A stretch of 64,000 nucleotides of DNA from Wenzhouxiangella sp. AB-CW3 (GTDB taxonomy: Bacteria > Pseudomonadota > Gammaproteobacteria > Xanthomonadales > Wenzhouxiangellaceae), in NCBI RefSeq assembly GCF_014725735.1, contig NZ_CP061368.1, positions 3,363,225 to 3,427,224 on the forward strand. Reading direction: 5' to 3'. Position numbers and translations under genes: made by a program. The notes under the pieces are model-generated. The model saw nothing but the letters and a program-made list of their open reading frames with translations. It did no database searches and was not told where the DNA came from. Numbering within the stretch: the stretch's first letter is position 1; every line of letters begins with the position of its first letter. Positions 17,893-40,956 of the stretch are shown here, piece by piece.

Positions 17893-18855
17893 ATGGGACT
17901 GGCCACCATTCATTCACGCGCCGCGGTAGGCATCGAGGCGCCCGAGGTATCGGTCGAGGTCAACCTGTCGCCCGGCCTGCCGCTGTTCGGCATCGTCGGC
18001 CTGCCGGAAACCGCCGTCAGAGAGAGCAAGGACCGGGTGCGTGCGGCCATTCGCAATTGCGAGTTCAAACTGCCGAGCTGGCGCACCACGGTATCGCTGG
18101 CGCCGGCCGATCTGCCCAAGGAAGGGGCGCGGTTTGATCTGCCGATTGCCGTGGGTGTGCTGGCTGCCTCGGGGCAGGTCGAGGTGGAGGATCTCGATGA
18201 CTGGGAGTTTCTCGGTGAGCTGTCGCTGACCGGGCGGCTGCGCTCGGTGAAAGGCGCATTGCCGGCCATCATTCGCGCCCGTGATGCCGGCAGGAAGCTG
18301 ATCCTGCCGCGCGCCAATGCCGAGGAAGCCGGGCTGGTAGGCGATGCCGAGGTCTATCTGGCCGAGTCGCTGGCCGAAGTTGCCGCCGCCCTCAATAATC
18401 ACCAGACACTGGTGCGAGCCGAACCGACCGAGGACACGATCGAGTTCACCGGGCCGGACCTGAGCGATGTACTCGGGCAACAACGCGCGCGCCGCGCGCT
18501 GGAGATCTGCGCCGCTGGCGGCCATAATCTTCTGCTCCTCGGCCCACCCGGCACCGGCAAGACGCTCCTGGCCTCACGCCTGCCCGGCATCCTTCCACCC
18601 ATGGCCGAAGAGGAGGCGCTGGAGGCGGCGGCGGTGGCCTCGGTGGCCGGCCTGGGACTGGATCCGGCGACCTGGAAACAGCGCCGATTCCGCACCCCTC
18701 ACCACACCGCTTCCGGGGTGGCACTGGTGGGTGGGGGCTCGAAACCCAGGCCAGGGGAGATCTCGCTGGCGCATGCCGGTGTGCTTTTTCTAGACGAATT
18801 AGTGCTTAGGCTGCAAGAGAATCCAGTCCAGCTTGAGGGGCCAGTGCCCTGTTGA
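17893..18855 (+). pseudogene. comM: comM 5' portion, split by the genomic island
   Basis: First 303 codons of the Mg-chelatase-like AAA+ protein ComM (YifB), a branch-migration helicase that helps integrate DNA during natural transformation. It has the N-terminal Lon-protease-like domain (GLPLFGIVGLPETAVRESKD) and the Walker A motif LLLLGPPGTGKT. The Walker B motif is complete in GVLFLDE. After DEL (codon ending 18801) the frame runs into 17 unrelated codons and stops at 18855. The rest of the gene is at 40957-41556. Without the second half the product is almost surely inactive. The last native-looking codons (CTT TTT CTA GAC GAA TTA) are unusually AT-rich for this gene. Confidence 0.93.
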
Positions 18856-18861
18856 TTCTCT
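18816..18861. repeat. Hairpin at the left end of the island
   Basis: AGAGAATC (18816-18823) and GATTCTCT (18854-18861) form a perfect 8-bp inverted repeat, with a second short stem GGGGCC/GTGCCC-like inside the loop. Its position next to the comM junction suggests a role in element end recognition or a transcription stop, but this is inference. Confidence 0.5.
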
Positions 18862-19371
18862 GCCGGTGCCCAATTGAGTAGGCCCGGAGGCGGCGGCGGA
18901 TTCACGCTCGTCTAGGATAAATTACCTTCCTACACTTTCCCCATGACGTACGTCCCGTACGTTGTCGCCAAACTCACCGAATATGATAATCTCAGGGCAG
19001 ATCAGGCCCCCTTCGGAGTGGCGGGCCTGGTTTGCAGGCATTTGAAGGGAGAGTGATCGTGCCCAGGACGATCCGCACATGAATATCGGCGTTGGAAAAA
19101 TTTGCCGAAATGCCCACATGTCCATCCAGTTGACAGGGGTTTTAGCTCGCCTGTCACCTCAAAATTATTCCACCCCTGCGACTTCCCCGCTAATTTATAC
19201 GGATTTCGCCCGTATCCATATGCGTCACGGATGGGTGATAATTCCAGCGACAGTCAAAAAGTCGGTAGATGATTATCAAGAACTTCTTATTCTCACAGCC
19301 CTATTGCCGAGCATTACCTGTCTGTTTATACAAAATAATCCGTATGACGCAATGTTGAAACACACTTTCTA
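18862..19371. other. Gene-poor left end of the island before the first cassette
   Basis: About 510 bp between the left-end hairpin and the first cassette boundary. No convincing gene: a 97-codon open frame (19079-19372) has no recognisable domain and no good ribosome-binding site. No integron integrase gene and no recognisable promoter-attI arrangement can be seen, although the last bases act as the attI-like or attC-like half-site GTTAGAGC (19372-19379). Confidence 0.55.
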
Positions 19372-19382
19372 GTTAGAGCACA

Positions 19383-19751
19383 ATGAAATCCTACCTTCTC
19401 CATTTAATCTTTTTCCTCGTGGCTGTTGGCTCAGGCCTAGCAGTTGCGTACCTTGTCGCCGAAAAGAGGTATGGAGAAATTGATCCGTTTCTTGATCTAA
19501 TGTGGAGCGTCGAACGAGAACACGCCGAGATAACGACAAGCCTACATCTCGGAACCATTAAAGCCGCGTTGGATGAAGATTACGAAACCATTCTAAGATG
19601 GAATTGCATATTTATGAGGTCCAATCTACCAAGGTTACGCATCTACGACGGTGATTCTGATCTTCAACGAAAGCGGGTTCAGGAAAGGCTCGAAAGGGCA
19701 ACTACCATGGTGCGAGAACTTGAGGAGAGAGACCTATGCGATGTGGAATAG
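19383..19751 (+). CDS. Cassette 1: small single-pass membrane protein, unknown function
   Basis: 122 aa. Residues about 5-26 form a transmembrane helix or uncleaved signal (LHLIFFLVAVGSGLAVAYLV). The rest is charged and soluble, with helical stretches and two cysteines (about 80 and 119). I recognise no family. The ATG is 4 bp beyond the cassette core GTTAGAGC, with no Shine-Dalgarno, which is common in gene cassettes. The attC starts 16 bp after the stop. Low GC like other cassettes. Confidence 0.65.
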   Translation: MKSYLLHLIFFLVAVGSGLAVAYLVAEKRYGEIDPFLDLMWSVEREHAEITTSLHLGTIKAALDEDYETILRWNCIFMRSNLPRLRIYDGDSDLQRKRVQERLERATTMVRELEERDLCDVE

Positions 19752-19766
19752 TAGCTGACGCTTTAT

Positions 19767-19860
19767 GCTCTAACAAAGGGTTCAACCGGACGCCGGTAAG
19801 CTTCCGGGCGGCAAAGCCGGGCGAGCTCGGTGGCGGCGCCGGTTAACCCAAACGTTGGGC
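19767..19860 (+). repeat. attC site of cassette 1
   Basis: 94 bp from GCTCTAAC (19767-19774) to the core GTTGGGC (19854-19860). The inner L boxes pair as GGTTCAACCGG with CCGGTTAACCC, and the centre forms a long GC-rich stem (GGACGCCGG...CGGCGCC), giving the usual folded attC shape. Confidence 0.88.
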
Positions 19861-19923
19861 GACGGATATATCTCGATGACAAAAATCTACTATAGCACCG
19901 GCAGAGATTAGGGGAAGTGCTCA

Positions 19924-22900
19924 ATGCGACATATTCCGACCTCTCTCTATATCGATACCGAGTTCTTCAAAAGGCAAGGGCTGCGTTTTGACACAAAGGC
20001 ATTCACCGCATTAATTGACACATTTGCCAAAGGTGGCCTTCGCCTGCTCGTCCCGGTAATTATGGAGCGTGAGTTACTTCGCCATTTTGTCAGGGAGGCT
20101 GAAAAAGTCGCCAATGCAGTCACAAACGCACATAAGGCATATCCTGTCAACGAATTAGCTCTTGCTGAACTCCCTTCTCAAGACGAAATGAAAACGAAAT
20201 GTATTGAAGAGATGAACCGAAAATGGTCTTCCTTCAAAGAGCATTTTGTCGTTGAAAACCTGCCGATCGCTGGCAATCTCGAGGATGTCGTTGACTGGTA
20301 TTTTGAAATCCGTCCTCCTTTCTCCGAGAAGAAATCCAAGGAATTTCCCGACGCGTTCATTATCAGCACTCTAGATCAGTATCATAAGCAACACCACGCA
20401 AACATTGCTGTCGTTGGTTTGGATGGTGATGTTAGTCAAGCTTGCGCGAGTAGGCGCTACATTGTGTATTTCCCTAATCTGGAAAAGTACATAGAGGCAT
20501 TCCAGCCAGAACTGTTAGGCAAAGAAAGGCTGCCCGGTGACGTCGATCTTACGAAACCCATCACCACCGAGGATCTGACAGAACTGAAGGCCATACTTGC
20601 TCGTGGGAACCAGGTGACTCCAATTGAAGTTGAACGGGTCATGCAGTTATTGGAGAGCAGAGGGTCTAATTACGATTACTTTTTCCAAAACGCTGACGAC
20701 GCTGTTTGGTTAACGCCACTTTCGGAAAGAGGATATTTTACCAATCCTCCCGGCACAGAACAGACTACCGAAGGGCACTATATTGCCCCATGGTGGCCCC
20801 CCCTCGAATATCTGATACGCATTTTTGATGCAGCCCCTGCTGAGGTGTTGGGAGTAATTTCATCACTTCCGAATACGGTGAATTTTCGGGTTCTGGAAGG
20901 TGTCTTGAAAATTGTATTAAAAGCCGATTCGGCTGACGCGATTTTGAGTTTTTCGCGATTCATTACATCCTTTGTTAAAAACTGCCGATGGGGTCACGAG
21001 CTCATCATCAGTTTGCTGAAAAAGCCATTCATTTTTGATGCACACCTTTCGGAAGTTACACCTTCTTTACTACTCAATATTGTTGAGTTCCGCAGAGATC
21101 CCCGTGAACAGGAGAGGCAGTCCCGGCGCAAAGATAACCCGGAAGCCTGGAACACTTCGCTAGAGCCGAAGCCGCGTTTCGATCAATGGGAGTACCAGCA
21201 AATCCTGGAAAAAGGCGTTCGCCCCTTGGCTGAGCATGAACCTTATCAGGTTTCCCGCATCCTGATTGATGCGGTGGCAAGCATGATCAGACTGGGAAAG
21301 CACCCGCAAGATTTCGAAGAAGGCAGCGATCAGGACTATTCGGAGATCTGGTGCAAAAGGCTGGATATGCCGGATCGCGACTATCAGGATTCGAAGGAAG
21401 CTCTGGTGCAGACGCTGACCTATGCCTGTGAGCAAGTCTATGACAAAACCCCGGAATCCATTAACGCCCTGGATCAGGCGTTGCGAAATCATCGCTGGAA
21501 CGTGTTCAAGCGTCTGCGGCAGCACCTTTACGCATCACATCCCAATGACCAGACCCTCCCATGGATACGCGAGGAGATCCTTGGTCACGATGGCTATTCC
21601 AAGTGGGAACATCACTACGAATTCCAATTGATGATCCGCAAGGCAAGTGAACACTTTGGCCTCCGTTTACTCAGTGAGGACGAACGAAAAGGGATTTTCG
21701 ACGCCATTTTCAGCGGGCCTTCCAAAGTGGATTTTCGCGAATGGATGGGGGAACGATACAGTGAGGAGGCTTTTCAGCAGCATCAGCGCTACTTTCATCG
21801 TATGCAGCTACGCCCATTCGCCGCACTGCTAGGAGGCGGGGATGTTCGACGGTATTTCGATGAGCTCGAAAGTGAATCCTCGGCTGACGGTGTTACCGAT
21901 GATAGCTATTCTCCCTACGGCGGAGTAACCGGCGGCACGGTCAGCTACCGGAGCCCGAAGTCCACCGAGGATCTTGAGAGCTTCACCGATGATGAGCTTC
22001 TGACCTATCTGAACGATTGGAACGAGGAGCATCGGGACAAGGACAACTGGCTGGTTGAGATCAATATCTCCGCGCTGGCTGGCGTCTTTCAGTCCCTGTT
22101 CAAAGAAAAGATTGTACCAGATGACGAACGCCTGGCTTTCTGGCTGGCGAACCGTGACAGGATTGCTCGGCCGGTCTACGTCGCCGCGATGCTCAAGGCC
22201 ATGCTCGAACTCGTCAAGGAAAAGAATTTCGACAAACTGGACCAGTGGCTTGAGTTCTGTGCATGGGTCCTGTCACATCCGGACACGTCGCGAGTGGAAG
22301 GACAACCCGAGCCGCGAGACGAATCACGCGACCATCCCGACTGGGGCAGCTCGCGCCGGGCCGTGGTTAATTTTATTGACGCCTGTGTGAACAAGGATAC
22401 GGAAGCGCCAATTACCGCAAGGGACGGCCTTGCCGCTCTCCTTCGACAGGCGTGCGGTCAGTCCGACTGGCGGCTCGACCACGACCGCCCGGTGCTGCTT
22501 AACCGCGACGATCCTATCACCGAGGCCATCAACAATACCCGCAGCCGGGCACTTGAATCCCTCGTCAATTTCGGCTTCTGGATTCGCCGCCAGTTGCCGG
22601 AAGACCAGCTGCCGGAAGTGACCGACATCCTCGCGGAACGTCTAGCCGAGAATGCTGAAATTCCGCTAACCCGGCCTGAGCAGGCGCTGCTGGGGATGCA
22701 CTTCGGAAACATCTGCACCCTCAATCGGGATTGGGCCGTCCAGCAACGCGAGATCTTTTTCCCGCAGGCAAATGAAGCTGTTTGGCGGGATGCTTTTGGC
22801 AGCTATATCCGCTTTAACCGTCCGGTCAAGCTAACGTTTGAAATTCTGCGGGGTGAGTTTGAATACGCAATAGAGAACCTGAATATCCTGGCGATCGAAA

Positions 22901-23514
22901 AAGGCGACGGTAAGGGGCTTATCGACAGACTGGGCCAGCACCTTTTCACCTACTACCTTTGGGAAGTCTACCCTCTGACGGGTAATGAAAGCCTGCTTGA
23001 GCGCTTTTATGAAAAGACCAAAGATGACCGGAAACGTTGGGGGCAACTCTTCGACCATGTTGGTCGATCACTGAGAAATAGCGGCAGGCAACTAGAAAAA
23101 ACTCTGACCGACCGCATTATCGCTTTTTTCGATTGGCGCTTTGAAGCCGCTGAGCCGCTGGAGCTTCAGGAATTTACCTTTTGGCTGGAAGCCGAATGTC
23201 TCGGCTCTGACTGGCGTTTGCAATCGTACTCGAAGATTCTCGATCTTGGCCGGGGAAAAGATGTAGGGCTTTTGCTTGAGGTGAGAGCTCTGAATAAACT
23301 GCTCCCGAATCACCAGGCATTGGTAGTTGAATGCTTTGCGAAAATTACGGCTGCCATGGACCAAGGCACGGAGATGTATATTTCAGCTGATGAGGCCAAG
23401 CCAATTCTAAAGGCTGGCCTGACTGCTGAAGACCCTCAGGTCCGCGAAAATGCTGAACGTGCCCGGGAAAATCTGTTGCGGCTCGGTCGCTTTGATTACC
23501 TGGATATTGAATGA
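19924..23514 (+). CDS. Cassette 2: 1196-aa protein with N-terminal PIN-like nuclease domain
   Basis: Very large for a cassette gene. Residues 1-175 look like a PIN domain of the DUF4935-like type: LYIDTEFF (Asp11), VIMERELLRHF (Glu48/Glu50), FPDAFIIST (Asp142) and VVGLDGDVS (Asp166/168), which would form the acidic metal site of an RNase. The remaining about 1000 residues are mostly helical, without a motif I recognise; they may be a sensor or scaffold. The ATG follows AGGGGAAG. Its attC begins 80 bp after the stop. A PIN effector with a long helical sensor would fit anti-phage abortive infection, but that is inference. Confidence 0.8.
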   Translation: MRHIPTSLYIDTEFFKRQGLRFDTKAFTALIDTFAKGGLRLLVPVIMERELLRHFVREAEKVANAVTNAHKAYPVNELALAELPSQDEMKTKCIEEMNRKWSSFKEHFVVENLPIAGNLEDVVDWYFEIRPPFSEKKSKEFPDAFIISTLDQYHKQHHANIAVVGLDGDVSQACASRRYIVYFPNLEKYIEAFQPELLGKERLPGDVDLTKPITTEDLTELKAILARGNQVTPIEVERVMQLLESRGSNYDYFFQNADDAVWLTPLSERGYFTNPPGTEQTTEGHYIAPWWPPLEYLIRIFDAAPAEVLGVISSLPNTVNFRVLEGVLKIVLKADSADAILSFSRFITSFVKNCRWGHELIISLLKKPFIFDAHLSEVTPSLLLNIVEFRRDPREQERQSRRKDNPEAWNTSLEPKPRFDQWEYQQILEKGVRPLAEHEPYQVSRILIDAVASMIRLGKHPQDFEEGSDQDYSEIWCKRLDMPDRDYQDSKEALVQTLTYACEQVYDKTPESINALDQALRNHRWNVFKRLRQHLYASHPNDQTLPWIREEILGHDGYSKWEHHYEFQLMIRKASEHFGLRLLSEDERKGIFDAIFSGPSKVDFREWMGERYSEEAFQQHQRYFHRMQLRPFAALLGGGDVRRYFDELESESSADGVTDDSYSPYGGVTGGTVSYRSPKSTEDLESFTDDELLTYLNDWNEEHRDKDNWLVEINISALAGVFQSLFKEKIVPDDERLAFWLANRDRIARPVYVAAMLKAMLELVKEKNFDKLDQWLEFCAWVLSHPDTSRVEGQPEPRDESRDHPDWGSSRRAVVNFIDACVNKDTEAPITARDGLAALLRQACGQSDWRLDHDRPVLLNRDDPITEAINNTRSRALESLVNFGFWIRRQLPEDQLPEVTDILAERLAENAEIPLTRPEQALLGMHFGNICTLNRDWAVQQREIFFPQANEAVWRDAFGSYIRFNRPVKLTFEILRGEFEYAIENLNILAIEKGDGKGLIDRLGQHLFTYYLWEVYPLTGNESLLERFYEKTKDDRKRWGQLFDHVGRSLRNSGRQLEKTLTDRIIAFFDWRFEAAEPLELQEFTFWLEAECLGSDWRLQSYSKILDLGRGKDVGLLLEVRALNKLLPNHQALVVECFAKITAAMDQGTEMYISADEAKPILKAGLTAEDPQVRENAERARENLLRLGRFDYLDIE

Positions 23515-23667: not shown

Positions 23668-23670
23668 GTC

Positions 23671-24327: not shown

Positions 24328-25425
24328 ATGGCAGATACGCAGAATTCAAGTCTGAGCAGGGCGAAAACGAACAAAGAAGACGAGTTCTACACGCAGCTGG
24401 AAGACGTCGAGCGAGAACTCAAACACTATCGGAAGCACTTCAAGGGCAAGGTAGTTTACCTTAATTGCGACGACCCTAGGGTCAGTGCGTTCTTCCACTT
24501 CTTTTCGTATAACTTCGAGAAGCTCGGTCTCAAGAAGTTAATCGCGACCTGCTACAAGAACAACAAACGCGACCTTTTCAGCGAAAATAGCAGCGAGCGT
24601 GCGATCTATCTTGAGTACGAGGGTGACAAGGATGGTGACCGCATCCCTGGGGATGATGAAATCGAGGTCAATTTCTTGGAGGGCGACGGAGACTTCCGTA
24701 GCGCTGAGGCTATCAAGCTCTTAAAGCAGGCGGACATCGTGGTCACGAACCCGCCCTTCTCGCTGTTCCGGGAGTACATCGCTCAGCTCTTCGAGTACGA
24801 CAAGAAGTTCATTATCCTTGCGAACCAAAATGCCCTTAAGTACAAAGGGATCTTCCCTCTGATACAGCGCGGCGAGCTGTGGGTCGGTGCCAATAGTGGG
24901 GATATGAGTTTCAGGGTCCCGGACTACTACACGCCTCGCGCCACCCGCTTCTGGATAGACGACAATGGTCAGAAGTGGCGGAGTTTCGGAAATATGTGCT
25001 GGTTTACGAACCTAGACTTTACAAAGCGTCACGAGGATCTGATTCTGTACAAGACCTATAACCCAGATGAGTACCCGAGGTACGATAACTTTGACGCGAT
25101 TGAAGTGAGCAAGGTCGCGGATATTCCAAAGGACTATCCGGGCGTTATGGGTGTAACGATTGGTTTCCTTACTAAGCACAATCCCGACCAGTTCGAGATA
25201 GTCGGCATCTCTCAGTCTTGGTACGGCGCAGCCTCCAAGCAGTACCCGACACAAATTCAGGTGAGCTCAAACGGCAAAAGGAGCAACGTCGGAAAACTCA
25301 ACGACGCGCCGGCAATCAAGGTGGACTCACCGCCCAAGGATAAGACATATTACATAGTGGGCGAGGAATACTTCACATCGCTTTATGCACGCGTTTTCAT
25401 CAGAAACAAGAAGGTGGAGAAGTGA
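24328..25425 (+). CDS. Cassette 4a: EcoRI-family adenine-specific DNA methyltransferase
   Basis: 365 aa. It matches the EcoRI methylase family: an N-terminal KEDEFYTQLEDVERELKHY, then VVYLNCDDPRVSAF and the catalytic motif IV NPPF (residues 141-144) in IVVTNPPFSLFREYI. Members transfer a methyl group from SAM to N6 of adenine. Normally the partner is an EcoRI-like nuclease; here the next gene, overlapping by 4 bp, is a DUF262-HNH protein, so the two may form a restriction-modification or related defence pair. The C-terminal part (about 240-365) includes a region typical of the family. Recognition sequence unknown. Confidence 0.88.
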   Translation: MADTQNSSLSRAKTNKEDEFYTQLEDVERELKHYRKHFKGKVVYLNCDDPRVSAFFHFFSYNFEKLGLKKLIATCYKNNKRDLFSENSSERAIYLEYEGDKDGDRIPGDDEIEVNFLEGDGDFRSAEAIKLLKQADIVVTNPPFSLFREYIAQLFEYDKKFIILANQNALKYKGIFPLIQRGELWVGANSGDMSFRVPDYYTPRATRFWIDDNGQKWRSFGNMCWFTNLDFTKRHEDLILYKTYNPDEYPRYDNFDAIEVSKVADIPKDYPGVMGVTIGFLTKHNPDQFEIVGISQSWYGAASKQYPTQIQVSSNGKRSNVGKLNDAPAIKVDSPPKDKTYYIVGEEYFTSLYARVFIRNKKVEK

Positions 25426-26519
25426 AGATCGAACTTCAGGAAATTCCAGTGCGAGATTTAGTTTCCGACTACGAAGACCACGAAGAAGCAGGAGTCCGAG
25501 GGTACGGGGGCAAACTCGATATTCGCCCTCCTTACCAGCGCGAGTTTATCTACGGGGAGAAGGAGCGGCAAGCAGTCATCAAAACCGTGACGCAAGACTT
25601 TCCTCTCAACGTCATGTACTGGTCAGTACGCGACGACGGCCATTTCGAGGTGATTGATGGACAGCAGCGCACAATCTCCATCTGCCAGTACGTCGAAGGC
25701 GATTTCTCATGGAACGGCCTTTACTTCCATAACCTCACAGACGATCAGCAAGAACAGATACTCAACTACAAGCTGATGGTCTATTTTTGTGAAGGGACCG
25801 ATAGCGAACGACTCAGTTGGTTCGAAACCATCAATATCGCCGGAAAGGAGTTGACCAAGCAGGAACTTCGAAACGCCGTCTTCGCCGGTCCGTGGTTGTC
25901 TGACGCAAAGAAATACTTCAGCAAAACCGACTGTGTAGCCTACAAGGTCGGTGGTGACCTCATGAAAGGCACGCCGATTCGACAGGAATATCTCGAAACG
26001 GTCATTGCGTGGAAATGTGGCGATAAGAGCGATGCCTCAATCAGAGACTTCATGGGAAAAAACCAGAAAAAATCTAAGGCAAATGATCTGTGGGTCTACT
26101 TCCAAAACGTCGTTGCGTGGGTGAGAGCGACCTTTCCCGTGGAGCGCAAGAAAGAAATGAAAGGGCAACCCTGGGGAATACTGTACAACCAGCACAAGGA
26201 TGCGGACCTTGACCCTGACGCGCTCGAAGAACAAGTCGCGAAGTTGATGGCCGACCCGGACGTAACGAACAAGAAGGGTATCTACTTGTTTGTTCTAAAC
26301 GGCAAAGAGAAGCATCTGAGCATTCGTCAATTTGATGAAAGGATGAGGCGTGAGGCTTTTGAGCGCCAAAAAGGGGTCTGTCCTGCTTGCAACGAGACCT
26401 TTACTATCGAAGAGATGCAAGCAGACCATATCAAACCGTGGCACGAAGGCGGAAAAACGGAGGCAGCAAACTGCCAGATGCTTTGTATCGACGACAACCG
26501 AAAAAAGGGTGGTAAATAG
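25422..26519 (+). CDS. Cassette 4b: DUF262-HNH nuclease
   Basis: 365 aa, starting at a GTG overlapping the methyltransferase stop (GTGA). The N-terminal DUF262 (ParB-like NTP-using) domain has RPPYQREFIYG and DGQQRTISICQ. The C-terminal about 45 residues are an HNH endonuclease: CPAC, then ADHIKPWHEGGKTEAANCQ and LC-x4-N. DUF262 nucleases include GmrSD and other restriction or anti-phage enzymes, often acting on modified DNA. The operon with an adenine methyltransferase suggests modification-linked restriction. It ends just before attC4. Confidence 0.87.
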   Translation: MKIELQEIPVRDLVSDYEDHEEAGVRGYGGKLDIRPPYQREFIYGEKERQAVIKTVTQDFPLNVMYWSVRDDGHFEVIDGQQRTISICQYVEGDFSWNGLYFHNLTDDQQEQILNYKLMVYFCEGTDSERLSWFETINIAGKELTKQELRNAVFAGPWLSDAKKYFSKTDCVAYKVGGDLMKGTPIRQEYLETVIAWKCGDKSDASIRDFMGKNQKKSKANDLWVYFQNVVAWVRATFPVERKKEMKGQPWGILYNQHKDADLDPDALEEQVAKLMADPDVTNKKGIYLFVLNGKEKHLSIRQFDERMRREAFERQKGVCPACNETFTIEEMQADHIKPWHEGGKTEAANCQMLCIDDNRKKGGK

Positions 26520-27765: not shown

Positions 27766-28704
27766 TCATCCCTCAACGATGAGGCCACGTTGGGCTGACA
27801 ACGTGATATGGGCTGACAGTCCTGAGTGGAACGCGATCGCGTCTTCAGTAATCCCATCGGAGAAAATCACCCCGCCCTGGGCCATTTCCGAGGTCACGGA
27901 GAGGCGAGATCCGGCCTTGATGTGGCCGGTGGTCAATTCCGTGCCCAGCCCGACGGACGGAAATGGCTCGCGCACGAAGTAGAACAACGAATCGGCGTCC
28001 CAAGGCATTCGTGCCTGCCTCGACGCCGGAATCGTCACAGATGCACCCCAAACGCTCGCGGTCCGATAGGCACCTTGAACAATGGAGCGCATCCAACCGG
28101 TCGAGCCAACCCCGGTAGAGACCACGATCCCGCTGGAGGAATGGTGCTCGGCTCGGCCCTCGGCCTGGATCCGATAACGGGCCGAGACGTGGTCTTTGCG
28201 CCCGATGAACAAGTCATTGACCGCCAGAAGCTTCTGACCATCCGAGGTAGCGGCTTCTGCAAGCGTGACGGCTTTCTGGTCCGCGCGGCCCGCCAGGTTC
28301 CGCTGTAGCACATGCCCAAAGTCACCGGGCTCGGTTCGGCACAGCACGCCCTCGATCGTGTCGGGGTCAGGATTGACCGCGATGATCGGAATGCCGACTG
28401 CGTACTTGACGGTGTTGGCCACCAGCCCGTCCGGACCTATGGTGACCACCAGATCGGAGTCCCGAAACGGAAAACTGCTGACCATCCCGCGCCGGACCAT
28501 CTGGACGGGTAAGTCCTCCGGGACGGCGCCACGCACGGCCCGTAGCGCTCGGTCGAACCGCTGGTGCTCGTCTTCCAGCGGCCCGAGGTCCTGTCCGGCC
28601 CTGTCTAGGTAGAACCGGGCCTGCTCCAGGGTCACGAAACGCTGTTTGAGTTCCTCCAGCCGCGTTTCGCGGGTGACGACGATCAGGCGCTCAGGCCGCA
28701 TCAC
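27766..28704 (-). CDS. Divergent NAD(+)/diacylglycerol-kinase-fold protein
   Basis: 312 aa. The NAD-kinase fold is suggested by LVVTIGPDGLVANTV (in place of GGDGT) and SSGIVVSTGVGSTGWMRSI (in place of the conserved TPTGSTAY segment), with a C-terminal beta-rich domain. The N-terminal about 65 residues are helical and unlike housekeeping NadK. The altered GGDGT suggests a changed substrate or loss of kinase activity. Its ATG overlaps the SPFH gene end by 14 bp. With an NrtR-like regulator in the operon, a role in NAD or nucleotide metabolism is the leading guess. Confidence 0.72.
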   Translation of the reverse strand: MMRPERLIVVTRETRLEELKQRFVTLEQARFYLDRAGQDLGPLEDEHQRFDRALRAVRGAVPEDLPVQMVRRGMVSSFPFRDSDLVVTIGPDGLVANTVKYAVGIPIIAVNPDPDTIEGVLCRTEPGDFGHVLQRNLAGRADQKAVTLAEAATSDGQKLLAVNDLFIGRKDHVSARYRIQAEGRAEHHSSSGIVVSTGVGSTGWMRSIVQGAYRTASVWGASVTIPASRQARMPWDADSLFYFVREPFPSVGLGTELTTGHIKAGSRLSVTSEMAQGGVIFSDGITEDAIAFHSGLSAHITLSAQRGLIVEG

Positions 28705-29584: not shown

Positions 29585-29608
29585 GGCTGCCTCCTCCTTT
29601 CTGTGAGG

Positions 29609-30271
29609 TCACTTGATGATCTGCACCGGCTCGTCGGACACGAGCCGGAACAGTTCGGCCGGCCGGTGTGGGCCGTCCTGAAATTTTCGCCCTGTGCCCT
29701 TCACAAGGCCTCTGGCCTTGAGGGCAGCTCGGAAATTACGCTTGTCCAGGGAATGGCCGAGAACGGCCTCATGGACGCCCTGAGCCTGTCTGAGCGTGAA
29801 TTCCTCGGGTAGCAACTGGAAAGCGATGGTCGAGTACTCGACCTTGGCCGATAGACGCTCTCGGGCCACCTGAAGGATCTCGGCGTGATCGAATGCCAAG
29901 TCCGGCAGTTCGTCGACCGGAAACCAGGCGGCCGCGTCGGCGTCGGTCGCGGCCTCGAGAATCAGCTCGTCGGAGCGGACCAGGGCGAAATAGGCCACGG
30001 TCACGACCCTGCCCCGTGGATCCCGGTCCGGGTCGCCGAAGGTGTAGAGTTGCTCCAAATAGGCCTCGTCGACGCCGGTCTCTTCCAGCAACTCGCGCCG
30101 GGCGCACTCGGCCAACGACTCCCCTTCCTGCACAAAGCCGCCCGGGAGGGCCCAGGAGCCCTTGTACGGCTCGCTGGCGCGGCGGACCAGCAGAACCTTC
30201 AGTCGCTCCTGCTGGATCGTGAACAGGACGATGTCGGTAGTCAGCAGGACCTTGGTGGGTGAGAAGCTCAT
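29609..30271 (-). CDS. NUDIX-type regulator with winged-helix C-terminus (NrtR-like)
   Basis: 220 aa from the ATG at 30271 (a GTG at 30280 is an alternative). The Nudix box GGFVQEGESLAECARRELLEETGV matches GX5EX7REUXEEXGU with its catalytic residues retained, so ADP-ribose hydrolysis is possible. The C-terminal part, QLLPEEFTLRQAQGVHEAVLG then LDKRNFRAALKARGLV, is the winged-helix DNA-binding domain of NrtR, the repressor of NAD-metabolism genes that senses ADP-ribose or NAD-related ligands. Paired operators upstream support autoregulation. It is the first gene of the operon. No Shine-Dalgarno is visible. Confidence 0.85.
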   Translation of the reverse strand: MSFSPTKVLLTTDIVLFTIQQERLKVLLVRRASEPYKGSWALPGGFVQEGESLAECARRELLEETGVDEAYLEQLYTFGDPDRDPRGRVVTVAYFALVRSDELILEAATDADAAAWFPVDELPDLAFDHAEILQVARERLSAKVEYSTIAFQLLPEEFTLRQAQGVHEAVLGHSLDKRNFRAALKARGLVKGTGRKFQDGPHRPAELFRLVSDEPVQIIK

Positions 30272-30282
30272 TTCGGACACTT

Positions 30283-33265: not shown

Positions 33266-35821
33266 ATGCCAAAAGATGCCAATGCGCTGCGCGAAGCAGT
33301 AAACGAGTTTTTCGGCCGTCATGGTGACGTCTACCTATTTGCAGGCGCAGGGGTTGGTGTAGCTGCAGGATTGCCTGATTGGAAAGGCTTTCTGGAAAAC
33401 CTTGCGCAGACATGCCGACAATACGATATAAATCTGTACCATGCGATGGCTGCCAGGATTTCTCAGAATCGGTTGACCTCCGCAGCAACATTGTACTTTA
33501 TCGCTGATATACCTGAGGCAGAGCGATACAGCGCCATTAGAGATCAGCTTAGAGAATATAACCACAAAGGGGTTGTTAAGTGTCTAACAAAGCTCCCGGT
33601 GTCCGGAGTGGTAACTACTAATTATGATAGATCCCTGTTAGATGTTTATTCTTCCGATGAGAATGGCAGCCCGTCGGATTTCTTCTATCCCGACCCCTCA
33701 TTAAATCAGGTTCAATTTTCAGATGATTTTTTTGTTGCAAGAATTCATGGGCGTATAGAGAACCCGAACAAGATTGTTTTACAGGAGCAGGACTACGATG
33801 CTTTGATAGACGACACAACCTATTTGGATGTTCTGACTTACCTTTTCGCTCACTGCAACCTTCTCGTTGTTGGCTATTCCTTCCTAGATCCAGCAATCCA
33901 AAACGTCCTGACCGCAGTAGCTGCTAATGTAGGTACGATTCAGTCCGGCCGCCATCTGGCGCTGATACCCGACGATGAAAGTACAGAGCTAGTGGGGCAG
34001 TTGAGCAAACTGAACGTTGAAGTATTGACCTATGATTCAAAGGATAACCATAGGGTGCTTTGGGATGCAATTTGCAGGACAGAGAAGAGCTCGGATAGCA
34101 TAACAGGTCTGGAAACGACTGATCCTTTCGTTGTCGCTCGAGCGTATTTCGCGACCTGTTACGCGCGATACAAAATGCAAGGGCAGTTAGCTCCTCTTTT
34201 GGATATCATTGTTGAAGGGGTGCTTTTGTCGGAGTTAGATAAGGTTGATGGATCTATCGACGTTTCTAAGCTTGTCGAAAATGTTGCAGACGTGATATCG
34301 GTTAGATCTGTGCAAATAGAGAATGACATTCGCGGACAACTATTCAAGCTGAATTCGGGCGGGTACGTTGCGATTGTTGAAGGCAATGTCTCTCGTGTGA
34401 CAAGAAAGGCGCCTAGAAAGCTTGAGGATCTCGATACTCTAGCCAAATCCATTGGAGCCAGGATGGATTTGGAGGGGGTCGGGCTTCAGAATGAAGCTCA
34501 TCGTAAGGCTATCGCCCCTGCTATTGAACACCTTGTTCTCTCAAGAGGCTGGCACCTGAGCGCCTCGTTTGCAACGCACCGAGTTCCAGATCATGTTTCT
34601 GTCCCAGATATATTTCACGGGTATTCCTTTCCTAAAGGGTTCCCCAAAAAGACCTTCACTCGCAGCGTTGAGGGAATGTTGTTCAATCCAGAGCCGAGGG
34701 AATCGAAGGCATTGGCTCGTCTGGGGGAGATAGCGTTTGGCCTCGAATTGGTGCTAAGGGCTCCAAGAAGTGCGTTTTTCCTAGAAAAAACCTTACCAGA
34801 AGAAATTTATCTGGATGCAAACGTTTTGATGCCAGCCATAGTTCACGGCCATCCTTTTAACGCGGTATATTCAAGGCTTATTAGAAAAATTCAAAGGTTT
34901 GCTGCTGAGTCCAAATCCAATCTCTTCATTCGGGCACACAGGGTTGTCCTCAATGAAATTGTAAGTCATCGAAGGTTAGCTATCCAGGAATATGAAAGGT
35001 TAGGAAGCAACGACTCGGAGGTCGAGAGGGAGGCGACCTACTACGGGTTGGATAATATGAATGTATTCCTTGCTGGCTACATTCAAACTAAGCGGGATGG
35101 CGCGGTTTCAGATTTTTCTGAATACATTCGGAAGTATGCCTCCTACGGAAAAGAGAGAGATCTCGAGGGGTATCTAAAGAGAACGACGACTATTATGCTC
35201 GTAGGTAATGAAAGGACGGAGGAAGCAGAAAGCTATCCAGATATACTCCATGCATTGGAAAAGGCTTATTCGCGCCGTTCTTTTTGGGAAAGGAAAGATG
35301 CAGCGCTAATCAGGCATGATGCTCAGCAGTTATCCCGGTTGCACAGTGGGGTTATGGGGGGTAAGCGGAGCATTTTTGTTACAGCGGACCGCACTCTTCG
35401 TCAGACCTTAGGGGAAACAAATTACGCGGATCTATCAAATTATATGATGAGCCATGTTGGCCTTGTCAATATGACACGGCTCATTGCTGCTGCGTACGAG
35501 GATGGCGGCGAGTTGTCTACGTCCACTGGAAGACTAATGTGGGCTGTCAGTCGCACCGATCACGCTGAGAGAATACGTAGATACCTTATTAATCAAGCAT
35601 TACGTGAGTATGATGCTGCATTGGCTGCTTCAATGGGGTCTGTGGTTGATGATATCGCAGAGGATGTTGTCATTGAAGCGAATAGACGGGATATTGATTT
35701 GGATGCCAATTCTGCGTTAGAAAAAGATCAAATCGGAAGACTTTTTGATGAATATGAAGATCGCTTCTTTGAGAAAATGAGGGACGTAGTTCGGCAGAGA
35801 GAGAGTGGTAGACAGAGTTAA
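33266..35821 (+). CDS. SIR2-PIN fusion protein (candidate anti-phage effector)
   Basis: 851 aa. Residues about 20-280 form a SIR2-like (SIR2_2-type) domain: LFAGAGVGVAAGLPDW (26-39), VVTTNYDRSLLD, ARIHGRIENPNKIVL with the catalytic-type His, and VVGYSFLDPAIQNVL. Such domains in defence proteins cleave NAD+. A middle region (about 290-500) is unassigned. The C-terminal part (from about 510) has a PIN-like nuclease: IYLDANVLM (Asp about 516), VVLNEIVSH (Glu), KDAALIRHDA and FVTADRTLR (Asp). A helical tail follows. GGAG lies 10 bp before the ATG. NADase and RNase joined in one chain is the main novelty; the defence role is inferred from domains and location. Confidence 0.82.
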   Translation: MPKDANALREAVNEFFGRHGDVYLFAGAGVGVAAGLPDWKGFLENLAQTCRQYDINLYHAMAARISQNRLTSAATLYFIADIPEAERYSAIRDQLREYNHKGVVKCLTKLPVSGVVTTNYDRSLLDVYSSDENGSPSDFFYPDPSLNQVQFSDDFFVARIHGRIENPNKIVLQEQDYDALIDDTTYLDVLTYLFAHCNLLVVGYSFLDPAIQNVLTAVAANVGTIQSGRHLALIPDDESTELVGQLSKLNVEVLTYDSKDNHRVLWDAICRTEKSSDSITGLETTDPFVVARAYFATCYARYKMQGQLAPLLDIIVEGVLLSELDKVDGSIDVSKLVENVADVISVRSVQIENDIRGQLFKLNSGGYVAIVEGNVSRVTRKAPRKLEDLDTLAKSIGARMDLEGVGLQNEAHRKAIAPAIEHLVLSRGWHLSASFATHRVPDHVSVPDIFHGYSFPKGFPKKTFTRSVEGMLFNPEPRESKALARLGEIAFGLELVLRAPRSAFFLEKTLPEEIYLDANVLMPAIVHGHPFNAVYSRLIRKIQRFAAESKSNLFIRAHRVVLNEIVSHRRLAIQEYERLGSNDSEVEREATYYGLDNMNVFLAGYIQTKRDGAVSDFSEYIRKYASYGKERDLEGYLKRTTTIMLVGNERTEEAESYPDILHALEKAYSRRSFWERKDAALIRHDAQQLSRLHSGVMGGKRSIFVTADRTLRQTLGETNYADLSNYMMSHVGLVNMTRLIAAAYEDGGELSTSTGRLMWAVSRTDHAERIRRYLINQALREYDAALAASMGSVVDDIAEDVVIEANRRDIDLDANSALEKDQIGRLFDEYEDRFFEKMRDVVRQRESGRQS

Positions 35822-35949: not shown

Positions 35950-36270
35950 TTAGTCTTCAGTCTCCAAACGCTTCAATCGTTCACTGAGATGCAAATTGCA
36001 TAATGCGTGAATGGTGCGCTGCAGGCGCTTGTTCTTCTCTCTTGCCTCCCTTAGACGCCTATTTAAGAGCCCAACGCTCGACGGGGCACGTCCCCTAGCT
36101 ACCAATATATCTGGACCAAATTCCGCAATTAGCTGCCGCCGATATGTATATGCCGTAGATCTTGGCACACGAGAAGCCTTTGCCAGGTCCGGAATCGAGA
36201 ATGTTTTAACACCATCCCGCTCTAGCATCCGCCTTCCGATTGAAACAAGCTTTGAAAGGGTTGTGCTCAT
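35950..36270 (-). CDS. Small HTH/coiled-coil protein of the recombinase module (TnpC-like)
   Basis: 106 aa. The N-terminal part has a helix-turn-helix (FSIPDLAKASRVPRSTAYTY) and the C-terminal half is a basic coiled coil (LREAREKNKRLQRTIHAL). This layout and its position, 4 bp after the second large recombinase, match TnpC of Tn554, a small accessory protein for transposition orientation and efficiency. Sequence identity to TnpC is not claimed. RBS GAAGG lies about 10 bp before the ATG. Confidence 0.68.
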   Translation of the reverse strand: MSTTLSKLVSIGRRMLERDGVKTFSIPDLAKASRVPRSTAYTYRRQLIAEFGPDILVARGRAPSSVGLLNRRLREAREKNKRLQRTIHALCNLHLSERLKRLETED

Positions 36271-36274
36271 CTCA

Positions 36275-38074
36275 TCAACCTTCGCTGTTTAGAACTCTGT
36301 CTGCCGTAGCAATTCGCTCTCTTAGCATTTCAACGGTCTGAGTGGGGATACCGCCGCGAGCTAAAAGTTCTTTATCCCTACCTCTTGTGCGCCTCCACCA
36401 GTCCAAAGTTTCCTGTGTACGAATGTTGTTGCTGCAGCCCGCGCAGATTTCTGGAGATCTAAGCCTATCATCTGGCCCAGAATCGCCCTTGCATTTGGCC
36501 AATTCCTTGATGAAAAGGCAATATCCCCACTCACATGCGTGTATGCTGACACCCTGGTTTCGGAGATGCTCAATAACTTGCTCTTGCTCCACCTCACCTT
36601 GGAACACCATGCCTGAAAAGACTGAGCCTGAAACAATTTCCCCATTCTTGACTAGGCTCGCGATCTCAGAAAGCAGCTCTTCCTCAGCATATCCGGCGAT
36701 TAGTGCCTGTAATTCGAAATCAGATCCAACATAGCTGTCGTCAGTCATCCTATAATCGATGTGACCATACAACGTCGAGATACTATCCAGACCAGCTTTG
36801 TCTCGGGTAGCGACGAACTGAGCGAATGTCTTTCGAGCTAGGCGTGGGTTGACTGAACCACGCATTAAGCCATTGTTCCTGGACACCACCTCATCGGCTA
36901 CTGTTTGCATCACGGGTCCAATTTTCTCTGGGGCTGCAAATCGCCTACCAGGCTCCCGGCGTTTATCAAAAAAGGCACCTCGCCCTCCTAGGCCAACAAA
37001 TAAATAATTTGATTCCGGAGATCGTCTGTGGCTCTGAAGACGCTTGATTGTATCCACAGAGGACACAAGTAGCTCTATTGCCGGCCAATAGTGATCACGC
37101 CTGCCATACTTGATAATCTTTCCTTTGACGTAAGGATACTTAACACCATCGGAGTGCTTAATATAGACGATACAATTAGTACGTAAATCCACGAATTCGG
37201 AAGGCCGCATCCCGGTGAGCATCATGATAAGAGTGACCGCACCAGCATTGATCAGCCTAATGTTTCTTGCCAGCCACCCCGTTGAGTTCAGCTTAAACGG
37301 GATAAACGAGTTCGGCAAAAGCAGCCTCTTCCCAGAACACGTCCTCTGTAGATACTTATGAATCCTGTCGCGAACTACACAAGTGGAACTGCCTTTTGCA
37401 TATTCCATATCAGCAATGTCTTGACATCGAATCCAAATCGGGAGCAACTTAGCGCCTTCTTCAACAACCTCCTTGGAAAACGCAATCATCTCTTTGGCAA
37501 GCGGCCTTTCAATTGACTCTACAGCGCAACCTTTTACCCTCCCCAAACTGCTCACTTGGTTTTGAAGCTTGATGATCGACTTAGGACGAACCCCGAATGG
37601 AATACCAAAGTCTTGTGAGGTATTGTGCAGGTCCGAAAGGACCGCCACGATAGCATCTAAGTAGGCTGTAGAAGGTCGCTCATTATTTTGCCCCCGCGTA
37701 CGCAGAAATCGCTCGCATAACTTTTCGCTAATGTTTTTTGGATCCCTAATTCCTTCTCCTGCTGCCCAAAGGAGAAAAACTTTTACAATTTGGAGAGTCG
37801 CCTTCACCGAGCTTACTTGTAGAACATCCCGATTGTCATCTGGCGCCTCAAGTTTTCTTATTGTATACACTTTTGCCAAGAATAGGAGCTTGTGCAACTC
37901 AGGTTGCATAAGGCCACCTAGCTTATGTCGCGTTCCCCAAATGATTGCTATATCTCGATCGGAGTTTGCCACGTTCACAAAAACCCATCTGCTTCGGGTA
38001 ATAGACTTCGCTATGCTCAGCATAGAGGCGCGTTCATCGATACACTTGATTGCTTGTGCTTGATCTATAAGCAT
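36275..38074 (-). CDS. Large tyrosine recombinase 2 (TnpB-like)
   Basis: 599 aa. The C-terminal catalytic domain shows box I at LTGMRPSEFVDLR (Arg), the second arginine in NPRLARKTFAQF, and the YGHIDYRMTDDSYVG end with His and Tyr. A cysteine-rich tail follows (HACEWGYC, then CAGCSNNI), which may bind zinc, as in Tn554 TnpB-type proteins. Its ATG overlaps the upstream stop by one base (TGATG). The N-terminal about 250 residues are a helical core-binding region longer than in typical integrases. Confidence 0.82.
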   Translation of the reverse strand: MLIDQAQAIKCIDERASMLSIAKSITRSRWVFVNVANSDRDIAIIWGTRHKLGGLMQPELHKLLFLAKVYTIRKLEAPDDNRDVLQVSSVKATLQIVKVFLLWAAGEGIRDPKNISEKLCERFLRTRGQNNERPSTAYLDAIVAVLSDLHNTSQDFGIPFGVRPKSIIKLQNQVSSLGRVKGCAVESIERPLAKEMIAFSKEVVEEGAKLLPIWIRCQDIADMEYAKGSSTCVVRDRIHKYLQRTCSGKRLLLPNSFIPFKLNSTGWLARNIRLINAGAVTLIMMLTGMRPSEFVDLRTNCIVYIKHSDGVKYPYVKGKIIKYGRRDHYWPAIELLVSSVDTIKRLQSHRRSPESNYLFVGLGGRGAFFDKRREPGRRFAAPEKIGPVMQTVADEVVSRNNGLMRGSVNPRLARKTFAQFVATRDKAGLDSISTLYGHIDYRMTDDSYVGSDFELQALIAGYAEEELLSEIASLVKNGEIVSGSVFSGMVFQGEVEQEQVIEHLRNQGVSIHACEWGYCLFIKELAKCKGDSGPDDRLRSPEICAGCSNNIRTQETLDWWRRTRGRDKELLARGGIPTQTVEMLRERIATADRVLNSEG

Positions 38075-39762
38075 CAGTAGAGCTCTGGTAGCGGGGCAAG
38101 ATCTCGGAGAAGGTCATCGCTATAGCCCACACTCAGTTTGGGCTGCACATCATGACAAATCACATTGAGTAATTCCTGATATACGTTTCGGAAGCGTCTT
38201 GCCCCCTCGGGGCTTAGCATCATTCGGCTCTTCGTCTGCTCTAGGTGGCGTTTGGCTTGCTCGACTCGGGTTGCAATATAGACGTTATTCTTTGGAATAA
38301 TGGCGCCTGGGCAGAAGAAGCATCCCAGAAAATTTGTACACAAACTTCCCTTTTTCTGTCCCTCGGCAATTCCTGCATACGGATCCTTGCAATGAGTTCC
38401 GAAAAGCGTTTCGAACCCCCTTCCAAATGAGCGGGCCTCATCTTCAGCAGACCACTTTACAATCTCACCTTGGAAATGGCGAATAGTACTGTTATGGCGG
38501 GCCATTTGGGCTTGATTGTTTAGGTATCTTTGAGTAGTCCTCATCTCGCCGTGCTGAAGCGCTTTTGTTGCGGCTTCAACGCCTGCTTTGCTATCGATTT
38601 CGCTCGCGATCGACGCACGAAAGCGTCGTAACTCTACTCCATCAATCCCGAGCCTTTCTGAAAACCTTGGCCAGAGATTATAGAGGTGGGCATCCGATGG
38701 CGTTGCGTAGACCCTGCTTTTCAGTTGGCAGACAAATAGTCTATTCCTGAAGTCTGCCGACACTTGGCTTTGGAAGTATTCCTGTAGATTTTTCAGCCGT
38801 CTAATGATGTTAGGTGCCGCCCACTTCACCCTAGGGTCAAACGTCTTACATTGCTCACGTGATGCCCTCGCTTTCTCCCAAAATATAGTCTCCTTGTTTG
38901 TGCCGCACTGCTCGATACAATCTCGCCTCAGATTCCAAATCGATAGAGGGTTGCCTACAGTCTGAATTAGCAACGCTACGTAGAACGGCATCAAGTCGGG
39001 GCCAGTAAGCTCAAGTTGACATCTGAGCTCTGTGAGCCCCATTCCCAATTGCTGCATTTTCCTTATAAGCGGGATTGGCAATGAGTTAGCTTTAGGGAGT
39101 TCTCCTTCACCGTGCGCGAGAACCTCCTTGATCAGCTCATTCCTGTCTGGTTGGTACAGCTCTCCAAACTCTTCTCTTATTGTGTGGCTTCGGGAAGCCT
39201 CAATGAATTTACCCCGACTTTCAATTCGTTCTTCAATCTGCTCTATTGCTTTGTAACACTCAATCAGGATCCGTTTGATCTCAGAAGCCGGAATAATGAC
39301 CTTCGGTATATGAAACGTCCGTTGCTTCTTTAGTCCTCTTTGAGTACGAATCCGGTTCTTGAACTCGCAGATCTCATAGTCCTGCATCCAGGCAAGCAGG
39401 CTTCTGGATTCGTTGAAGACTCCATCTCTCGTCCGCATTGACTTTGGAAGGGCTTCGCAAAACCTGATAAACGCTACAAACTCGCTATCGCCAAACTGGG
39501 AAGGGCTCGCAATAGCTTCTCTATTTAGGAATTTTGCCAAGTATCCAAGCCGATAGAAAGCTTGGGTACGAGTACCAGGCCTTCGAGGCGTATTGATCTG
39601 GACGAAGGCATTGGCGACGGGCGAGCACCAAGCTTCGGGGAGTCGTGTCCTGTTGAAGGCGAAGGATTGACTGCTCTTTCCGTTTTTGCCTCTCGCGAAG
39701 TACGCTCGACCGTTGCGCACACGGAATTCAATGGGCTCATCAAGAAGATCACGCCCCTTCAC
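38074..39762 (-). CDS. Large tyrosine recombinase 1 (TnpB-like)
   Basis: 562 aa. Catalytic features are less standard: NPLSIWNLRRDC for box I, ELRRFRASIASEI for the second arginine box, and LQHGEMRTTQRYLN with His and the nucleophilic Tyr. A cysteine cluster (CTNFLGCFFCPG) follows, likely a zinc site. It starts at a GTG overlapping the 390-aa integrase by 14 bp, so all genes of the module are translationally coupled. Either it is a divergent active recombinase or a partner subunit of the other two. Confidence 0.78.
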   Translation of the reverse strand: MKGRDLLDEPIEFRVRNGRAYFARGKNGKSSQSFAFNRTRLPEAWCSPVANAFVQINTPRRPGTRTQAFYRLGYLAKFLNREAIASPSQFGDSEFVAFIRFCEALPKSMRTRDGVFNESRSLLAWMQDYEICEFKNRIRTQRGLKKQRTFHIPKVIIPASEIKRILIECYKAIEQIEERIESRGKFIEASRSHTIREEFGELYQPDRNELIKEVLAHGEGELPKANSLPIPLIRKMQQLGMGLTELRCQLELTGPDLMPFYVALLIQTVGNPLSIWNLRRDCIEQCGTNKETIFWEKARASREQCKTFDPRVKWAAPNIIRRLKNLQEYFQSQVSADFRNRLFVCQLKSRVYATPSDAHLYNLWPRFSERLGIDGVELRRFRASIASEIDSKAGVEAATKALQHGEMRTTQRYLNNQAQMARHNSTIRHFQGEIVKWSAEDEARSFGRGFETLFGTHCKDPYAGIAEGQKKGSLCTNFLGCFFCPGAIIPKNNVYIATRVEQAKRHLEQTKSRMMLSPEGARRFRNVYQELLNVICHDVQPKLSVGYSDDLLRDLAPLPELY

Positions 39763-40921
39763 TGACCATACCCTCTAGCACTTCGCCGTTTAGAAACCCG
39801 AGGGCCTCGTTCAAAGTTGAAGGATCTTCTTCTATACTTTTTATGTATATCATGGTCGATTCGATCGATCGATGGCCTAGCAGCCTCTGTAGCATTTTTA
39901 ATGGCGCAATGGGCTTTGCTTTAGCAATGACATAAAGGGACCTGAGGGTATTGATCGCATATGTATGACGAAGATCATGGAATCTCACGCGCCGAGGAAA
40001 CTTCGAAGCCACTCTTGCTCTGTAGAAGGCTGATGTTATGGCGGCCGGTGTTATAGTTTGACCGAACCGGTTCCGCCAGAGAAGGCCTGCCCCATCAAGT
40101 GGAAAGTTGGGATTCTTCGCGGAAAGCTCAGCCATATAACGCTTTGTCTTGCTGACAATGGTATTGGGTACATACAAAGTCCGGTAACCACCACCTTTTG
40201 TTTTCACTTCAAGTTCGCAGAGAACTTGAACTTCCACCGAAGCGGAAAAAATGTCTCCGGTCCTAAGCATAGCTATTTCCCCTCTGCGAGCCCCGGAGTA
40301 AAGAGCCCACAGTGCTATTAACCGATAAGGATTATTTAGGTTCTTCAGCAGATCGTCAAGATGGTCGGGATTAATCGCTCTCGGTAAATACTGATACTTC
40401 TTTACCAGGAGCGTTCGTCTTTTGGGGGAAACGTAAAGACCGGTACGCGAATTGTCTGAGCTTATAAGCGTTAACATCGATTTGCTCAAGGAAATATTTC
40501 TGGTATTTGCCCATCGATAATGTCGGATAACACATGAGAGTCGGTCGTTTATCGTCGTAGTGGCGAGGGACTTTCCGTTAATACCAGTAGGCCGCAACAA
40601 CGCTGAACGGTACGAAACCAAATCTGAACTACGCGCATATGACCAAGTTAGGCGATTTCGACTCAATGTAGCGAACCAATCGGCAAGATGCTCTGCATAG
40701 GTTCTTAGTGTCTTGAGACTCGATACAGAACAAGAGACAAAGTATGCGTCCAGCAAGTAGTCATTGATCGCGTCAACGGGCTTCCCATCAATGTCAACAA
40801 CGCAGGGAAAGCCATCAGGAATTCTGGCGTCATGGTGCCCAACCAGATCCTCAGCCGCCTTGGACTCGAATACCCGCAGGTCTGTCATGCACAAGTACCT
40901 TTTTATCAAAGGGTTAGGCAT
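39749..40921 (-). CDS. Tyrosine recombinase/integrase (TnpA-like), first gene of the module
   Basis: 390 aa (an ATG 11 codons on, at 40888, is an alternative start). It has an N-terminal SAM-like core-binding domain and a complete catalytic set: SGARRGEIAML (Arg), HDLRHTYAINT (His-x-x-Arg) and LGHRSIESTMIYI (His, Tyr). It begins 35 bp inside the right comM junction, as expected for an element-end integrase. A minus-strand TATACT in the terminal sequence (about 40943-40948) could drive the whole four-gene module. Confidence 0.9.
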   Translation of the reverse strand: MPNPLIKRYLCMTDLRVFESKAAEDLVGHHDARIPDGFPCVVDIDGKPVDAINDYLLDAYFVSCSVSSLKTLRTYAEHLADWFATLSRNRLTWSYARSSDLVSYRSALLRPTGINGKSLATTTINDRLSCVIRHYRWANTRNISLSKSMLTLISSDNSRTGLYVSPKRRTLLVKKYQYLPRAINPDHLDDLLKNLNNPYRLIALWALYSGARRGEIAMLRTGDIFSASVEVQVLCELEVKTKGGGYRTLYVPNTIVSKTKRYMAELSAKNPNFPLDGAGLLWRNRFGQTITPAAITSAFYRARVASKFPRRVRFHDLRHTYAINTLRSLYVIAKAKPIAPLKMLQRLLGHRSIESTMIYIKSIEEDPSTLNEALGFLNGEVLEGMVSEGA

Positions 40922-40956
40922 ATACTGAAAGCCTTAGTCTAGAGTATAGCCTAATG

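Follow-up and report, generated by a model that had tools for sequence, protein, structure and literature searches.

A four-gene recombinase island of the SE/GInt type in comM of Wenzhouxiangella sp. AB-CW3 appears to belong to a clade of comM-seeking mobile elements

The elements described as SEs (strand-biased circularizing integrative elements) have a core of four genes, arranged as intA, tfp, intB, and srap (PMC10214605), and their insertions show 6 bp of the host on the intA side and 6 bp of the donor on the far side (PMC9345347 and PMC10214605). They are reported in Gammaproteobacteria only (PMC10214605), and SE-6283 and SE-6945 possess imperfect 19-bp inverted repeats (PMC9345347). The elements described as GInts consist of a four-gene operon (ginABCD) with varied cargo and insert site-specifically, for which a model with a 6-nt stagger was proposed; the targets named include an ABC-transporter gene and ssb, and it is GinC, encoded by the third gene, that lacks the first arginine (PMC5385486). 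Tn554 also employs tyrosine recombinases, is site-specific, and leaves a 6-bp footprint (PMC10214605). Here, we compare with these systems a 22-kb island that splits comM of Wenzhouxiangella sp. AB-CW3. The island lies in a stretch of 64,000 nucleotides (contig NZ_CP061368.1, positions 3,363,225 to 3,427,224), which we call the window and to whose numbering all coordinates refer.

The target gene, comM, encodes a helicase for recombining transformed DNA, and its loss lowers transformation in Acinetobacter (PMC11472951). Two described elements, Tn6022 and Tsy, reach comM via TnsF, which needs 10 bp in the Walker B region (PMC10293859). Tsy comprises the recombinase YRec, located next to the 5′ half of comM, a helix-turn-helix (HTH) protein, and a TnsF that carries zinc fingers at its N terminus; a GIY-YIG protein is often present as well (PMC10293859). 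A tyrosine-recombinase element in comM is therefore already known in principle, and the island of the window is not the first. We found no published report of an SE- or GInt-like clade in comM: the word comM is absent from the main texts on SEs (PMC10214605 and PMC9345347; the supplementary target lists were not covered) and is not named in the main text on GInts (PMC5385486), and PMC10293859 was not seen to describe such a clade.

In the window, comM and the island are arranged as follows:
17893 to 18799, plus strand: comM 5′ part, to ...FLDE plus the first base of the Leu codon (assigned from the in-frame join and the intact ComM of a relative)
18800 to 18805, plus strand: left 6-bp spacer TAGTGC, a foreign footprint that does not fit the comM pattern TNCCNG
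18806 to 40954, no strand: island core of 22,149 bp with the terminal inverted motif TTAGG...CCTAA
40955 to 40960, plus strand: right 6-bp spacer on the IntA side, TGCCCG, which is native to comM
40955 to 41556, plus strand: comM 3′ part (LPEY... to the stop), assigned from the in-frame join

Joined in frame, the two parts of comM yield a ComM of 502 amino acids reading HAGVLFLDELPEYSRHVLEV. Each half matches the genome only once, so that there is no second copy. In the closest ComM relative (genome G008; 91% identity over the first 302 amino acids), the stretch at the break is unbroken and has the same amino acids. A DNA pattern search found the FLDELPE motif uninterrupted at 23 of 29 relatives' loci (L003–L031); one of the remaining six (L028, genome G048) is interrupted, and the other five were viewed as open frames only. 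An ancestral split of comM is ruled out, the gene being intact in relatives. The break lies just after Walker B in the codons for L-P-E, which dictate TNCCNG; the right spacer TGCCCG equals native comM, and G008 has exactly this sequence. Read inward, both island ends start with TTAGGCT, and the GC content is 0.523 in the core and 0.635 elsewhere in the window. Because the break follows directly on Walker B and the halves lie 22 kb apart, inactivation of comM is very likely, and the broken gene is probably non-functional. A drop in natural transformation, as expected in the initial annotation, may follow.

The initial annotation of this DNA had proposed that a 22-kb, AT-richer tyrosine-recombinase island was inserted in comM. 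The in-frame join, the defined ends, the empty site in relatives, and the lower GC content of the core bear this out, as does a junction base shared by 15 comM elements, the window included. The ends themselves had to be shifted slightly (core at 18806–40954), because the DEL/PEY join given there assigned to comM two bases that belong to the left spacer.

The right end of the island is filled by four genes:
39749 to 40921, minus strand: IntA, a canonical tyrosine recombinase of 390 amino acids (Pfam PF00589 and PF02899; alignments)
38074 to 39762, minus strand: gene 2, 562 amino acids, with a Tfp-like tyrosine-recombinase fold (alignments; the predicted fold matches XerH)
36275 to 38074, minus strand: gene 3, an IntB-like large tyrosine recombinase of 599 amino acids (Pfam PF00589 under its cut-off; alignments)
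35950 to 36270, minus strand: gene 4, a small protein of 106 amino acids in the place of Srap, GinD, or TnpC (position behind gene 3)

IntA features R212, K242, H315, R318, H350, and Y359, and all six catalytic residues are invariant among its aligned relatives. Gene 2 gave no match in the Pfam scan; in the alignments, its product lacks the box I arginine and retains R382 (the box II arginine), H404, and Y413. The structure predicted for it from 18 sequences (mean pLDDT 79.6, pTM 0.54) has XerH as its best match (E 8e-6, TM 0.55 by target length). Gene 3 encodes R290, K322, R414, H438, and Y448 as well as a C-terminal cysteine cluster, and the box II histidine of its plasmid relatives is, by eye, an arginine in the window, G228, and G830. 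Gene 4 has no Pfam match. Catalysis is probably carried out by IntA and IntB; the product of gene 2 would be a largely structural or accessory recombinase, and that of gene 4 an accessory factor.

The same module is found in comM of many other genomes, a check that the initial annotation had suggested. When 398 genomes of the order were searched with gene 2, eight matched, that of the window included, and one of the others, G228, has the module in comM. Extending the search to 297 genomes around G228 yielded nine matches and added G830, again with the module in comM, and G048 carries a decayed copy in comM. Class-wide, no relative was found in 368 genomes apart from its own. Scanning contigs first with gene 2 by itself gave no hits, and an IntB alignment then retrieved 21 module loci; as the latter scan rested on a single IntB motif, absence elsewhere carries little weight. 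In 14 of these 21 loci, the comM 3′ half is next to IntA or what remains of it (two Massilia, Pelomonas, Roseateles, Oxalicibacterium, Herbaspirillum, two Rhodoferax, two Burkholderia, three Stenotrophomonas, and Lysobacter). By protein identity, L105 is the G830 locus and L107 the G048 locus, whereas the window and G228 come on top of the 14.

The orientation is constant in all 14 comM loci, the window, and G228, with IntA or its remnant always adjoining the 3′ half of comM. Unless all loci stem from a single insertion, this regularity makes it extremely improbable that the recombinase genes are passengers and that some other event broke comM, even though the island holds other mobile genes (of IS3 and IS200 type) that could be thought of as the cause.

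The junctions are equally uniform. Right junctions were examined in 16 comM elements (the window, G228, and the 14 loci) and were readable in 15, that of L117 being eroded. The same comM base is broken in all 15. In 14 of them, CCTAA stands directly before the junction, giving CCTAA/TNCCNG, and the remaining one (L100) has TGTAA. Of the 14 comM 5′ halves inspected for the left junction, 12 could be read (L122 and L128 gave no pattern match); TTAGG follows right after the 6-bp left spacer in every one of the 12. The IntA-side spacer fits TNCCNG in 12 of 12, partly by construction of the search pattern, whereas the far-side spacer fits it in one (Massilia, TGCCCG) and is not comM-like in the other 11. 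The DNA patterns presuppose FLDEL or LPE codons, which partly fixes the first T of the left spacers and the IntA-side motif; the element end directly before the IntA-side spacer is not presupposed. For Rhodoferax sp. OV413, the comM halves lie on separate contigs, and their pairing is assumed.

In unrooted trees built from three proteins of the module, the comM elements group together. The first tree (33 modules, 1510 columns; omitting L105, the same as L071; L107, decayed; L114, the same strain as L054; L116, a near-copy of G228; and L048) has a branch with an ultrafast bootstrap of 99 that separates the comM elements, the window, and two Cupriavidus copies from the rest. A second tree under a mixture model (30 rows, further omitting the fragments L117, L112, and L072) recovers the same split with an SH-aLRT of 98. 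The comM label requires two changes on the tree versus a shuffled mean of 10.0, and none of 500 shuffles was as low. Approximately unbiased (AU) tests moderately reject both alternatives tried for the window, namely its placement in the plasmid-type group (p 0.015) and in the distant group (p 0.012). The exceptions inside the comM group are the two Cupriavidus copies (L041 and L101), plasmid copies of a comM-group element at a non-comM site, where CCTAA is followed by CACAGC.

Because relatives of the module sit at the same comM base in many bacteria, the island appears to be a specialised comM-seeking element and not a one-off insertion. Taking together the island ends, the empty site, the common junction base, the fixed orientation, the grouping of comM elements in the trees, and the polarity of the spacers, we consider it very probable that the island is a site-specific mobile element with a four-gene module of the broad SE/GInt multi-recombinase group, and that its clade homes to one base position in comM. 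Several points weigh against this. At seven of the 21 loci (L101, L108–L112, and L114), no comM lies beside the module; L108 among them starts at IntA on a contig end, where the insertion site is not visible. The comM 5′ half of G830 and the L117 locus are eroded, most of the module is gone in G048, and the comM 3′ piece of L116 is short and contains a stop. Gene 4 of the window has no BLAST match to the other small genes. The window copy sits on a long branch (2.18), which makes its placement less sure, and as the trees do not fix the root, gain and loss are indistinguishable.

Kinship with SEs and GInts was judged by gene order and published descriptions; a plasmid search with the L044 and L047 modules yielded no named SE reference. 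Like the SEs, the island has four collinear core genes at one end (intA, a degenerate recombinase, a large recombinase, and a small protein) with cargo behind, a GC content below that of the host, and few preferred targets. Its 6-bp footprint also has host bases on the IntA side, where the motif is partly pattern-fixed, and foreign bases on the far side in 11 of 12 cases. In contrast to the SEs, the comM clade also occurs in Betaproteobacteria. Its ends read TTAGG...CCTAA (TTAGGCT in the window, with little beyond); SE-6283 and SE-6945 have the imperfect 19-bp repeats mentioned above. Tfp of the SEs is without the RHRY catalytic set; in the product of gene 2, the box I arginine is missing and R382, H404, and Y413 are present. 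Tn554, compared by description only, differs by having two recombinases plus TnpC and no counterpart of gene 2.

The GInts share with the island three integrases and a small protein at one end with cargo behind, and an ordinary GInt that lies in comM by chance would account for this four-gene plan, with cargo downstream of gene 4 and imperfect repeats with a 6-nt stagger (PMC5385486). Profiles of genes 1–3 match genes 1–3, in the same order, of two Pseudomonas plasmid modules (hhalign) and score higher on L145, in which three recombinases are annotated as such but which is not a proven GInt, than on L144, which is SE-like by gene order alone. However, the arginine-less protein is GinC, the third gene product, in GInts, whereas here the first arginine is absent from gene 2 and gene 3 keeps R290; moreover, as stated above, the main text on GInts does not name comM. 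We therefore regard a chance GInt insertion as unlikely.

Membership in Tsy, with entry into comM by TnsF, is highly improbable by comparison. Tsy and the island both employ tyrosine recombinases in the Walker B codons of comM, and a Tsy-like element in G084 sits in the same gene and codons, with a break that overlaps the SE-type spacer. Yet the Tsy gene set consists of a zinc-finger TnsF, YRec, and HTH in the opposite orientation and has no gene 2/IntB pair, with YRec beside the 5′ half (PMC10293859 and G084), whereas the island has three recombinase-like genes plus a small protein and IntA beside the 3′ half. TnsF has no match in the genome of the window (G000), and hhalign of TnsF to IntA, gene 2, and IntB gave probabilities of at most 1.6%, a weak test with a TnsF profile of only three sequences. 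Tn6022 and AbaR resemble the island in that comM is interrupted and cargo is carried, but they have Tn7-type transposition genes and break comM near codon 284, ∼18 codons upstream of the break described here. Neither TnsA, TniB, nor TniQ had a Pfam match among 17 open reading frames (ORFs) scanned in the island, which together with the lack of a TnsF match speaks against a Tn7-like origin. These observations support the proposal of the initial annotation that the island uses comM independently of the AbaR/Tn6022 machinery.

Other elements use comM in the same order, in which 380 of 398 genomes have a comM match at E 1e-20. We surveyed 30 genomes with partial or double comM matches, picked by eye among the matches listed, plus G049, so that the counts are lower bounds. 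Tn6022-like elements with TnsF occur in at least three genomes (G049, G072, and G236, the last assigned only by the position of TnsF between the comM halves), with the break near codon 284. G087 (L095/L096) carries a Tn7-like element near the same codon in which TnsF was not detected. The element of G084 (L087, 8055–12285) has a full Tsy-like set of YRec, HTH, TnsF, and GIY-YIG; its break reads GACGAACT / CGAGTGG, and YRec faces the comM 5′ half. In G242 (L090), G340 (L091), and G370 (L092), elements of 6–9 kb that carry two serine-recombinase-like genes, one large and one small (Pfam-checked for G340 only), break comM at about codon 212, before Walker A. G024 (L052, 7933–8853) has a second, truncated comM copy that ends at the Tn7-type GGG site, ∼4 kb from the intact comM. 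G234 (L093/L094) has an 18-kb insertion near codon 350 with no machinery identified, and the breaks in G264 and G234 fit none of the classes named.

The polarity of the spacers suggests how the SE/GInt-like element in comM might move. The recombinases would cut attB with a 6-bp stagger, and the element would travel as a circle that brings along 6 bp adjoining the site it left. When it inserts, the 6 bp of the host would be retained next to IntA, and the imported 6 bp would end up on the far side. It is possible, although we advance it only tentatively, that the far-side 6 bp record the previous address and that 11 of 12 comM copies (10 of 11 distinct elements) came from non-comM sites, plausibly plasmids, with comM as the chromosomal home and plasmids as the vehicle. 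That the donors sat outside comM is suggested because 11 far-side spacers are not comM-like, and an origin from plasmids is plausible because the two Cupriavidus plasmid copies lie inside the comM group.

Alternatively, the far-side spacer might be written by the element itself as its own att sequence instead of being copied from a previous address. G228 and Stenotrophomonas sp. 278 are in line with this, as their nearly identical modules share the far-side spacer TCGTCC in different comM alleles. However, left spacers vary widely even among related elements (TCGTCC in G228 versus TGTCTC in G048, with IntA 76% identical over 170 amino acids), one left spacer equals the comM spacer (Massilia, TGCCCG), and published SE insertions bear the 6 bp of the donor (PMC9345347 and PMC10214605). 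A self-written spacer is thus somewhat unlikely.

Besides the module, the island contains the following genes:
19924 to 23514, plus strand: cargo protein of 1196 amino acids with an N-terminal PIN_12 domain; residues 234–1025 are similar to Dsr1 profile positions 307–1054
24328 to 25425, plus strand: EcoRI-type adenine methyltransferase (PF13651; PADLOC MTase_II)
25422 to 26519, plus strand: GmrSD_N-HNH type II restriction enzyme beside the methylase (profile matches)
28691 to 29584, minus strand: Band 7/SPFH protein (PF01145)
29609 to 30280, minus strand: NUDIX protein with an NrtR-type winged helix
30946 to 32387, minus strand: IS3-type element with two ORFs, taken as a secondary insertion
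33266 to 35821, plus strand: SIR2-domain protein of 851 amino acids with a ThsA/LmuA-like N-terminal part

An IS200-type fragment also lies within the island, so that the recombinases, insertion sequences, and defence-like genes listed for its interior in the initial annotation were all found. The C-terminal part of the SIR2 protein is PIN-like to the eye only. The block 27766–30280 (Band 7, NUDIX-NrtR, and one further protein) is GC-richer than the island and adjoins the IS3-type element; it was perhaps acquired separately.

To survey cargo elsewhere, we ran PADLOC on 20 large ORFs located close to the module of 11 other comM elements. Strong matches are SspB and SspC in L098, GajA and GajB in L113, Tmn in L103, and PDC-M48B in L104, and weaker ones occur in L099, L100, L106, and L115; the large ORFs scanned in L102, L118, and L105 gave no PADLOC match. 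Defence-like cargo is frequent, but not universal, in the comM elements sampled. Such partly defence-like cargo may benefit the host or the island.

In one bacterial order, comM is thus struck by at least four machineries, namely Tn6022-like, Tsy-like, and serine-recombinase elements and the SE/GInt-like clade. Several machineries in comM fit the idea, already published, that it benefits mobile elements to disable the means by which the host could swap them out, and multiple users of comM in one order provide a comparative system for that idea. Elements find a widespread landing site in the conserved DNA of Walker B, and from the spacers it may be possible to read their itineraries in genomes.

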